Assembly (NCBI RefSeq): GCF_020085105.1 | Contig: NC_058052.1 | Location: 19,616,233 to 19,680,232, forward strand | From: Siniperca chuatsi | Lineage: Eukaryota; Chordata; Actinopteri; Centrarchiformes; Sinipercidae | Direction of reading: 5' to 3' | Length of the DNA stretch: 64,000 bases | Part shown: positions 195 through 6,100 of the stretch, one piece after another | How positions within the stretch are numbered: position 1 is the first letter of the stretch | How the letters are laid out: each line of letters starts with the position of its first letter | Made by a program: the position numbers and the translations under genes | The notes under the pieces: generated by a model | The model's database searches: none | Seen by the model: the letters and a program-made list of their open reading frames with translations, nothing else | Told to the model about the DNA's origin: nothing

Positions 195-3100
195 CTTTTC
201 CCACTTGTTGAGAAGCTCTTCAATTGTGATGGTGCTGTAGGGGTTGATAATGTTGGCCTTGATCCCATAGCTCTGGGAAATTTTCTGCACCTCATTGTGG
301 ATTCCCAAGATGGCCTGTCTCTCTGCATCTGCCTCAGGTAGAGTAGCTTTGAACTGCTCATGAGCTGCGATTAGACTCTGGAATGGGAAAAGGGAAGTCC
401 TGAAACATTAAAATTTCCATGTGATGACATTGTGGTTCTTTCAGGTGTGACAAATCTACCAACATTACTCACTATACAACATTGAAAACATGTACATGAA
501 TCACAATCTTATTAAAATTGGGAGCAGGTTGACTGGACTTTAACAGCAACAATACTGTGAAATTAAACTATAATCTCACAAATAGCAGTAAGTGTGTGAG
601 TCTACAGGGCTGTGAGTAAGCCTACCTGGACCTCTTCGATAGTATGCACTATGAACATGTCCTGCAGATCCTCCATGGCTCCATCCATCCAGTTGTTGAA
701 AGGAGCTGACCTCTTGGAAAACTCCAAGAACAACTGATCAATAGTCTCCAGCAGCTTTTCTGTCCGCTGAAAGGATATCACATATCAGTTGTATATTTTT
801 AAATCCTGGAAAACCCATAACATCCAACCTATAGCTCAGCATTAGGCTCTACCCTGTACTTAGGAGGCATCATTTTCATGATTTCACATACAAATCCTGA
901 AACAAACATCCCCTCACCCATTTTGATGGCTAATCCCAGGGTGCATAACTTTGGTATGGCCTGCTAACCCCCAACTCTGGCTTGGTTGTTCATGATAGAG
1001 TCCCTACCCTCAGCAGGGGATGGCAGGGAGTGGAAGATGGACAGAAAACAGACCTCTGTCCCTGTCATTCAGACTTAAGCTCTTGGCCCTTTTCCCTGGC
1101 CCTCACACATGCAGGTCTGGAATAGCCAGCATGGATCAGAGGAAGTGGCTAGTGGGCTTTCGGCCAGTCACTTCCTGGACAGGACTCTTACATCTATTTC
1201 TCCTTTATCCCCTCCACCCTCCCATTTTACCATCCTATCTGGGTCAGGGACTTTAGAGGGGATCCAATTATGTCTCCTCATCAATCAGTTGTGTCTTCAC
1301 TGTTCACATGTCATTGACAGACACCTAAATATGATTACACAGACATTTTGATTAAGTTGGTTTTGGATGCAACTTCATTCTGCATCTATTATGATCTGTG
1401 TGGAACATTAGTGCACTCTTGTGGGGACTTACTAACTCATCCCAACATGTGCAAATAGATTAATCCTTCACTAGCTATAATGAAAAAACACTTTAGGCCT
1501 TTGCGAAACTGGTCAAATGGATATGAATGCTTTTCATCTGCTTTCAGTCATAAATTCAGAAATGCCATTTTAATTTTATCTTTGTGATCAGCCTTGAATG
1601 TTGCCCTCACCTCCAGAGCCTCTCTCCTCTTCTGAGTCAGGGTTCCCAGCTTGTCCCACAAGTCACAGATGCTCTGACAGCGTTGGTTCACAGCAGCCAC
1701 GTCGTGGTAATCCAGCTCACTGGAAAAAACAAAGCACGTACTGTGGTTTGTTTCAGTTGTGGAAAAGAGCTTACTCTACTGTGCTCCCCAGGCATTGAGA
1801 TGCCTTTTAAAAAAAAAAATTAAAAAAACAGAGACTGACCGCCGTAGTTGAAATTGTTTAACACAACCAATGACTAAGGTCTGATCACCTGTGATTAAAG
1901 AAACTGCTAAAATTGAAAGTGTACTAACACTTTCAATGAATGCCTCCTGAATTACAGTTTCACAATAGAATACGATAAAAAGACCATTTTCATTTTGCTG
2001 CTGGAAAGGCAAATGAAATCATGGAGCAACAGGCACATGCAGGTCTTTAAGTTCACCAACAGCTGCAGACCCAATTTTAGACTTAATGCAGACACCTCAA
2101 TTTAAATAATATTAACCTTAAAAGTTGTAGGCTCTAAAGTACAGTTTTCAGCTCCGGTACAAGCTGAAGACCTTCATGATTCAGTCAAGCCTAAAGGCGT
2201 CACTATGGTCTTAAGTTTGGACATGACGATAGGCAGCCAGCTTGTAGGTGCTCCTATTTATAATACTTACCAAGGTGTGTTTGGATTCCTTTCCCTGGCT
2301 ATACTGATGAGGTACATCAGAGCTCTTGAATATGTAGAGCTTACACTATTAAGGAAGTTTTATCCACTGTAATTCTGTCCTCTAGTGGAACAAAAGGCAT
2401 TTGTTTTTTTAAACGTGAAGTCAAATTTAAGGGCCAAGACATAGTAAAGAATGTGGTAGTCATTTAGTATTTTATTTAAAAATTTCAGAAAAACAAAGTT
2501 GAACACAGACATCACACATTTTAGTAAACTGCAGGGACTACTAGAGCTGCCGTTACAGTGATCTGCTTCATGTTTGTTTAAAGACTAAGCTTTTTTTATA
2601 ATCCTGGCGCTGCAGCCAGAGGCCATCACTGGGAACCTCCTGGGTCTGAGTAGGGAGGAGTGGAAGTTGATCGCTAGGGAAGTGATATCTCACATAATGG
2701 ACTCCACCCCAGTGGTCCCTGCCAGTCTCATAGTCTGACTGGAAGTCAGAGACTGTGCCCGGAGGAAGTTGACCGGTCAAGAAAAGGTAGTACTGGTTCG
2801 GACCCACTTCCTGAATGGGGCCCTCAGGCATGGAAACATCTGTCAGCTTGTCAGCTCCGTGTGTAGCCGAAGCATAGGCAGCCAGTGGCATTAAACCTTG
2901 CTCTTCCGTTTCCCGCTCTTCATTTCCCTGCTCATAGATGGAGTCATAATGATGCAATTCACCAGCCTGGAAGCCAGGTTCCTGATATGGAGGTGGTGGC
3001 GGCACAAAGCTTAGCGCCTCCCTTTCAAAATTACCATGATTGAAGTTCTGTTCATAATTCTCAAGCTCACCTGCCTGAAACAAAGGTTGAGGGGGAACAA

Positions 3101-6100
3101 GGCTAATGTCAGATATGGGCTGAGATGTTCTAGACACTGTATTGGTAGTTGTAGATGCAGCCATAGGATCCCAACCAGCAGCAGCATTCCACGAAGCCAC
3201 ATTGGACATGTCTGGAGTACGGCTTGCAGGGTAGGTTTCTGGACTAGAATACACTCCCCCCTTCACTGGTTCATACTGGAATGAGACAGCAGGGTAACTC
3301 ATACTGAAAGGCTGAGCAGGAGCACTTTGGGATGAGCTATAGTCGAGGCCAGGAAGTGCCTCCAGGTTAGTAAGACTAACCTCATTAGGATCACGCTGGC
3401 TCCAGCCTAGGGGCCAAAAAAAGTGGTAAAACTCTTCAGTTATTCAAGTCTAACGCTTTTAGAGTACAATTATAGTCTCAGTGAAGTGATAGTCTTACCA
3501 TTTTTAGTAGGAAAGCAATGGACATAACAGCTGAACAGTGTAATGAGGAGCAACTGACTGTAAGAAAAAACATCATGGTAAAAACTTGAGTAAAATAAAC
3601 AAGCCATTAATAGAAAATGAACATGCAAACATAGGCATTTGATCATACCTTGCAGGAAACCAAGTGGTCATTTTCCTTGTCAGCTGAAATGTTATCATCT
3701 TCTCTCAAAGTACCGGTTAAATATGAAACAGGAAATACTCTGTGGTCAATCCCAGACTGAGAAGGTAACGATGGACAGGTGTTCATCACTGATTGCTGAT
3801 TGAAAATGTCAGCATGCCACACCTTTAACCCTTCTATTGAGATATACTGTAGTGACGAGCACTTAATTAAGAAGAAGAGGGTTTAAGTAGTTTTCATGAA
3901 TACATTTTCCAATGTGGTTCAAAATCATCTCACATGCAAATCACAGTTTAGAGAGTTCATATTGTTCCAAATTATTTTCTGCACTGCTTGTCCCCCTCTT
4001 TTTCTTCTTCCACTGTCTCAAATGTGAATAAAGAGAACAGATGTTTTTGGGACCATTAAACTACTGCATATTCTATGTGAGTGCAGTGTTGTGTTGTGCT
4101 CACGTCCTTTGCTGCTTGTCATCCATAATCTATACAGACAATCACCCCTGGAAGTTATACAGTGTCTACAGCCAAAATGCTATTAAAATAATATTTAAAA
4201 GAGAGAAACAGAAAAGATTCCATTAGTTGATTTTGCTATTAGTCCCCGTGATTGTGTTTGGCAGGAGTGAAAAAACATACTCCTGGGCCTCGATGACACA
4301 TGACTGAAAACGTCTGCTAAAGGGAGTACGTACTTAAGTTCCTGTGCAATGGCGGCAATCTGCTCCACTCTGTCCTGGTGGGCTGCCAAGTCACTCTCAA
4401 AGGCCTCGTGTTTTCGAAGCAATGCTCTGATTTCTGTCAGGGTGGCTGTTTCATAGTCCTTCTGGGAGAGGATCAGTTCTTTACCTGAATATCACACATA
4501 TGCAAAGAGAGGAAGAGGGATGGGGTAAGACAAGGGAACACCAAGATGATTGGTAGGTTAGATCTAAACACAAGCCTTATTTGGTCATTGCAGATGAAGA
4601 AAATGACCTGCTGCAGTCCACTACAGGCTGATTGCATTGGACAGAGTCTAAAACCTTCAATCAGATTTCATTAGGAACAAGTCTAAACAAACCCCACGCT
4701 TAAAGGGAACATTTACACTGAAAAGCAGGCAAAGAAGCAGAAATACAGATGCCTGTAGATAAACTGGAGCTAACAAGATATGATAAACAGATAAACATGT
4801 AGACCTATAGACATACTGTAGCAGTGAGAGATAGATAGAAAAGCAAGAATACAGACAGTTAAAAAGCCAAACTACAACTGACCACTGGCCCAGGTCTCAT
4901 GATTGGTGGCTTTTTGGCGAAACTTTTCAGCCAGATGGTCCAGCCTCTCCAACCTACGGATCTCTGTAAGGAGCCACTCCTCATAGCCTTTCTCTGCCTG
5001 CTCCAGGCCCTGCCATGCACTGGCTATGTCCTGTACACACAATGAAAATGAAAAAACACAATTTAAACTTACTCACTTAAAATGTTTTGAATTGATTCTA
5101 CGCTGTCAAATAAGAAAATTAAATAAATTTGAATACTAAGCGGAGAAAGAATTGTGACTTACAGACACCATCTTCCCCTCAGAGGGCATGAAGGCAGGCC
5201 GATTGCTGATGCGCAACTTGGTCTGCAGGGTGTTGAAGTTAATTTCCAGCTGGCACTTCTCCTGCACCTTAGGGGGCTTGTGCTGGCGTCTGTAGTCCCT
5301 GAAGTCCTCCAGCTTCCGCTGCATCTCCGCCATGGTCTTCTCTGGGGTCCGGTTCTCCAGCCAGGGAGTGGTGCGGCGGATCCACTCCAGCAGCTTTGAA
5401 ACAAATGGACAACATGAGAATAAGGGGAGAAGCAAGAGAGCTCCATGTTAAGATAGCATTGTGTCAGGAAGACCGTGATGAATTATTAATTTTTTCAGCA
5501 GATTGGTCTCAGCTTATCGCAGCAATGGGATACATACATATTTTTGATTTTGAACTTAAGTCTGTACTTTTACTTTGAACTACTTGCATGTAACAGAGGA
5601 CACATTTTAGTGTAATATGTACTGTATGTACCATTATCCACAAAGGTTCTAAAGTTTTGCTAAATTTTGCTTTGAAAAATCAAAGGTTTCATCTCCCACT
5701 ATTTTTTAAAATGAAATTTCAAATCATGTTTTACCTCACTGGCCAGTCTCTCATACTCCTCCATCATTTTCTCATTCTCCTGGTTTACACCGAGCACCTT
5801 ACAGATCCTGTTGGCAGCCGTCTCTGCCTGAGAGCATAGGGCATGTCAATAATGTAAGCAAAATAACACAGTGGGCCGTGCTCCCATTGGTCCTTCCGAT
5901 ATCTCTATTAACATTATCCTCATAATAAACAAGATAGATAAGTAATCTAAAAATTAGAAAAAAAAAAAAGAAATTGGTAAGGGGACTGGTTCAGCCACTA
6001 TACCTGCTCAGCTCCAGCAAAAGCATGGTAAAAGCAGGACACGTAGGTCATGATAGCTCTTTCATCAGGCTTGGGGGTGTTGATGATATCTATGGCATCA

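Follow-up and report, generated by a model that had tools for sequence, protein, structure and literature searches.

The stretch of Siniperca chuatsi DNA considered here (C11:19616233-19680232, 64 kb; hereafter the window) belongs to a genome that was searched over 719 Mb in 65 contigs. An alpha-actinin gene occupies the minus strand at the low end of the window; its start codon lies near 14.7 kb, it extends past the window's edge (the last donor seen is at position 195), and one of its introns contains, on the same strand, a predicted three-exon protein-coding gene. Host exons were numbered as coding exons from the start codon; the intron concerned is then intron 12 (1720..4333, minus strand; GT..AG, phase 2, 2,614 nt), which separates exon 12 (4334..4484, minus, donor TAA|GTACGT) from exon 13 (1611..1719, minus). 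Exon 12 ends in ...AQEL followed by AA, and the junction AA|T followed by GAG CTG GAT yields the continuation NELDYH.

The complete coding region of the nested gene lies inside this single host intron. Its three minus-strand exons are joined across introns at 3648-3558 (intron A) and 3498-3407, of phase 2 and phase 1, respectively; the splice sites, in order, are AAG|GTATGA, TTCTTACAG|T, ATG|GTAAGA, and GGCCCCTAG|G. The coding part of exon 1 (3649..3671, minus) provides MTTWFPA plus two nucleotides and would begin a signal peptide, exon 2 (3499..3557, minus; phase 2 in, phase 1 out) would provide the remainder of that peptide and the mature N-terminus FPTKN, and exon 3 (2568..3406, minus) ends in a stop codon at 2570-2568. 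Read across the joins, the frame is free of internal stops; counted from the ATG at 3671 it comprises 306 codons, and from an alternative in-frame ATG upstream at 3698, 315 amino acids. A TATA-like sequence, TATTTAA (3717..3723, minus), precedes the ATG at 3671 by 52 nt; as a putative promoter element it fits a transcription start at about 3690, so that the second ATG (3671) would fit as the start codon. An AATAAA (2471..2476, minus) follows the stop codon by 91 nt and is the sole AATAAA or ATTAAA on the host strand of the intron. An earlier account made from the letters of this DNA alone (the sequence-only reading) had proposed three exons with these junctions, good splice sites, a protein of 306 residues, and an AATAAA belonging to the gene itself; the exon structure proved exact to the base, and the signal is as described.

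Chance can be excluded as the origin of the nested frame: no stop-free run in the window is longer than that of exon 3, and codon periodicity there is strong. From stop to stop the exon-3 frame is 291 codons, the longest of seven open reading frames (ORFs) of at least 150 amino acids in the 64 kb; that length was reached by none of 2,000 Markov sequences with the composition of the intron (maximum 197), by none of 2,000 matching the composition of the exon itself (maximum 281), and by none of 60 simulated 64-kb windows (maximum 248). The period-3 signal of exon 3 is 6.6, while 3,000 Markov versions gave no more than 3.26 and both flanks gave less than 1. The G+C content is 0.50 in exon 3 vs 0.37-0.38 in the flanks.

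The sequence-only reading called the host actn3, a name that has to be corrected: on the evidence of a tree and of pairwise identities, both of which group it with ACTN2, the host is of the actn2 type and not actn3. The tree was built from 321 spectrin-repeat residues of the four actinin loci of this genome, human ACTN2 (PDB 1hci), and the PDB actinin 1sjj, ACTN3 not being included; the window actinin grouped with ACTN2 (98/97), the actinin on contig C15 with 1sjj (98/97), and that on C22 was placed beside the ACTN2 pair (82/83, midpoint root). Pairwise identity of the window actinin is 83.8% with ACTN2 and 81.0% with 1sjj. No vertebrate ACTN3 chain was present among the PDB matches; 1g8x, named alpha-actinin 3 in a myosin fusion, matched at E 3.3e-23. 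Judging by their residues, the C22 gene is probably actn3 and the C7 gene probably actn4. The intron equivalent to host intron 12, estimated from match and frame positions, measures ~1.1, 0.6, and 0.15 kb in C22, C15, and C7, respectively, and genome searches with the nested protein and with that of its relatives on contig C16 (below) found no relative of the nested gene at these three actinin loci. In this genome, therefore, the nested gene was found in this actinin alone.

Relatives on contig C16

A whole-genome search with the nested protein detected two relatives, 6.7 kb apart on contig C16 (9224697-9225047 and 9231407-9231757; E 5.9e-16, 45% over the 113 residues 170-282 of the query), and searching the same genome with the C16 protein placed the tandem pair at C16:9224643-9225801 and 9231353-9232512. 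The full protein alignment of the nested gene and C16 gave 37% identity, with two clear modules; the nested gene and the C16 pair share a mature start [FY]P.K.G, a QAGE module, and a FLTGQ.PPGTVS...GRDHW module. As read from the C16 DNA, the C16 gene has four coding exons (MMAVCVMSGALLLVMLVGVNYSYPVKQG...), and its signal peptide is split by a phase-2 intron. The first intron is of phase 2 in both genes, its positions one codon apart, and the second is of phase 1 and at codon G28 in both. Exons 1 and 2 together contribute 82 nt of coding sequence in either gene, as 23+59 in the nested gene vs 26+56 in the C16 gene. The C16 relative has a TATAAA 48 nt before its ATG, compared with 52 nt for the TATA-like sequence of the nested gene. 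Comparison of the 153 nt upstream of the ATG with C16 gave a local score of 33, which 4 of 1,000 shuffles equaled or exceeded (best shuffle 44), and is suggestive only.

The two C16 copies are identical over aligned stretches of 1,421 bases (L007:620-2040 and 7330-8750) save for one internal gap: copy A lacks a single base toward the end of exon 3, and its exon 4 is thereby out of frame. Either the duplication is very recent and one copy has been damaged, or the assembly is in error. Two copy A frames were without a family match in Pfam. Between the copies (L007 ~2200-5100) lies a non-long-terminal-repeat-retrotransposon-like stretch with reverse transcriptase, recognized by eye, and a zinc-finger frame ~10 kb from the C16 genes is presumably of the bcl11 type.

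No further family member was found by the C16-protein search of the genome at E ≤10, in which 8 of the 12 matches fell in the C16 and C11 genes, although that search scores the best candidates only and more distant members may escape it. The other four matches (C16:8189573, C21:432965, C17:28207720, and C21:15930208; E 1.9 to 3.0) were rejected as chance; the one at C21:432965 lies in a frame that by eye resembles an SH3-containing protein, and the one at C17:28207720 in long low-complexity frames. The IMG/VR contigs contained no relative of the nested or the C16 protein, and prokaryote genome contigs, searched with the nested protein and with a two-row alignment, contained none either.

The encoded protein

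The product is predicted to be secreted: a hydrophobic stretch has the appearance of a signal peptide, with the mature protein starting at FPTKNG. The mature part, of ~284 residues, contains neither cysteine nor an N-glycosylation sequon and has an isoelectric point (pI) of 4.47; the whole 315-residue product includes 32 P, 30 S, 24 Q, and 17 Y. The C16 mature product is also without cysteine, has a pI of 5.16, and contains one N-glycosylation sequon. The nested protein carries two QAGE modules (2988..3077 and 2886..2969, minus) and one C-terminal module, YxFLTGQxPPGTVSxFxSxxExGRDHWxxxHYxR (2676..2792, minus), that is shared with the C16 relatives, whereas the C16 genes have a single QAGE module. 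That single module pairs with the first nested module in the protein alignment and with the second in the DNA alignment, so that either may be its counterpart. Note that the conserved QAGE motif is encoded by TTTCAG|GCAG|GTGAGC (3080-3065, in exon 3), where the acceptor and the donor with the highest scores in the entire intron stand four bases from each other.

Because no curated family or solved structure matches the nested protein, its function is judged on composition only, which tentatively suggests, at somewhat below even odds, an extracellular structural or matrix-type role. The secretory calcium-binding phosphoproteins (SCPPs) are secreted, Cys-poor, acidic, and P/Q-rich, and the nested product, with its predicted secretion and its Cys-free, acidic, P/Q-rich mature part, is like them in these respects. 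SCPP introns, however, are of phase 0 and are placed after the signal peptide and not within it; the nested introns are of phases 2 and 1, and membership in the SCPPs was rejected.

Splice sites in the shared intron

Splice sites were scored with an ad hoc matrix built from consensus frequencies, which is not a trained model. By this measure 11 of the window's 15 host donors score below both nested donors, and 12 of 14 host acceptors score below the exon-3 acceptor, that of exon 2 being mid-range. The donor of host exon 12, at the start of the very intron in which the gene is nested, ranks second from the bottom among the 15 host donors. In the host transcript the inner acceptors lie 776 and 927 nt into intron 12, and the proper acceptor is reached after 2,614 nt. 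As the sequence-only reading had anticipated, host RNA would need to bypass closer splice sites as well as a poly(A) signal, and the sequence supports this.

Since host intron 12 has the same phase, 2, as nested intron A, a join of host exon 12 to nested exon 2 would be in frame, and so would one of nested exon 1 to host exon 13; the frame is lost when host exon 12 joins nested exon 3 or nested exon 2 joins host exon 13. The phase agreement counts as a single coincidence, expected one time in three, and not as two, and it does not show that such joins are used.

According to a mammalian survey (PMC8467205), most simple nested pairs are opposite-strand (220 of 296 in human and 193 of 248 in mouse), and inner genes tend toward tissue-specific expression. 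The same-strand nested protein-coding genes of mammals, like the present one, lie wholly within a host intron and face a problem of tissue conflict. Compared with the surveyed pairs, the present case is of the minority orientation, and its inner gene encodes an unclassified predicted secreted protein. Effects of nested genes reported in PMC3192792 are intron retention, forced exonization, and cryptic polyadenylation. Among the open-licence PMC papers listed by literature searches, none, judged by title, reports the nested gene or a gene nested in a fish actn2 or actn3; four peptide words of the family matched nothing in the open-licence PMC texts searched, and passages of PMC13079451 contained nothing that ties to the nested protein.

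Interpretation and alternatives

Our preferred reading, to which we give a probability of about 0.78, is that the window contains an independent three-exon protein-coding gene, with an AATAAA and a putative promoter of its own, that is predicted to encode a secreted member of the family seen on C16 and lies, in the same orientation, in intron 12 of an actn2-type gene. The sequence-only reading's independent, same-strand gene in actinin intron 12 with a split predicted signal peptide is in this way supported. Because the C16 relatives share its modules, split signal peptide, and introns, and because dN/dS is low, the gene appears to belong to an intron-bearing family under constraint and to be neither a de novo ORF nor a retrocopy. 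Over 67 codons (the second QAGE and the C-terminal modules), the nested and C16 sequences differ at 22, 18, and 29 sites at codon positions 1, 2, and 3, respectively; nonsynonymous divergence (dN) is ~0.36 and synonymous divergence (dS) ~1.10, giving a dN/dS of ~0.33, the pattern, with caution, of a protein under constraint, given that these modules were chosen for alignability and that a dS of ~1.1 is near saturation. In a neutral simulation that assumes equal base changes and no indels, none of 2,000 copies remained stop-free at 0.55 changes per site (mean 10.6 stops), 2 of 2,000 did so at 0.3, and 72 of 2,000 at 0.1.

The limits just given, on the choice of modules, the saturation of dS, and the assumptions of the simulation, weigh against our interpretation, and they are joined by further points. 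A third C16 intron, before the QAGE module in copy B, is without a counterpart in the nested gene; we read this as an intron loss or gain and not as a family-defining feature. Host intron 12 also contains decoys that score above the real sites: donors at 3070 (11.7, within exon 3), 3822 (8.5), and 2270 (8.4), and acceptors at 3074 (9.5), 2645 (8.7), and 2639 (8.2), all three of the latter within exon 3. Finally, Pfam and NCBIfam returned 0 families for the nested protein at a maximum E of 10, and PDB returned one chain, at E 0.96, which was taken as chance, leaving no solved-structure match. The statement in the sequence-only reading that the protein matches no family thus stands for Pfam, NCBIfam, and PDB but fails for the gene's own genome, with its two relatives on C16.

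Each alternative has something in its favor. A retrocopy or transposed cDNA inserted in the intron might be suspected from the nested gene's having one intron fewer than the C16 genes, but two of the three C16 introns have counterparts of the same phase, located to within one codon, and we give this idea next to no credence. Equally improbable is a chance open frame or de novo ORF, which would agree with the lack of a curated family match but would leave unexplained why simulations never reach 291 codons and why C16 paralogues exist. The gene might instead have been silenced recently, its frame intact and its transcription lost, and one C16 copy does already carry a one-base frame difference; however, an intact frame, splice sites, a TATA-like box, and an AATAAA are all present together in the nested gene, and neutral drift at 0.1 changes per site already breaks most copies, so that we consider silencing unlikely.

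A somewhat lower probability than that of silencing attaches to the proposal that these exons make up no separate gene and serve the actinin gene as alternative first or last exons. The shared phase 2 of host intron 12 and nested intron A, with its two in-frame joins, speaks for it, as do the weak donor of host exon 12 and the nearer inner acceptors. Against it, the C16 relatives share the exon plan while contig C16 has no actinin match (search at E ≤ 1e-8), the phase agreement is of a kind expected by chance one time in three, and the two remaining joins are out of frame. Marginally less probable again, and likewise prompted by the phase-2 introns, is a sharing of parts between the two genes: the inner promoter would also make an actinin without the actin-binding domain (MTTWFPAS-ELDYH...), host transcripts would terminate prematurely within the inner exons, with the frame preserved, and the nesting would act as a regulated switch.

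For an independent gene, events would presumably run as follows. Transcription would begin at its own putative TATA-type promoter, splicing would use 3648/3558 and 3498/3407, and the transcript would end at its own AATAAA. The product would be a secreted, acidic (pI about 4.5), Cys-free protein rich in Pro, Ser, Gln, and Tyr, perhaps extracellular, structural or matrix-type, and tissue-restricted. Because two introns were kept, the gene would have entered the actinin intron, or a copy would have left it for C16, by DNA-level duplication. Conflict would presumably be averted because the actinin gene is active in other cells, those of muscle, and because its transcripts pass over the inner sites; separate tissues of expression for the two genes may be the simplest solution.

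The arrangement is ordinary in kind, as a nested gene, and uncommon in orientation. It is a clean example, open to checking, of a gene lying in the same orientation inside a muscle-type actinin gene; in the mammalian survey (PMC8467205) that orientation is in the minority. It also outlines a small family of predicted secreted proteins that is absent from the curated libraries searched, and the C16 relatives, for which no actinin host was found, would provide a natural control for effects of nesting on expression and splicing. Elsewhere in the window, Pfam identified a prolyl 4-hydroxylase alpha subunit (24141-25057), a dual-specificity phosphatase (33801-34511), and an SGT1-type protein (47489-48076).

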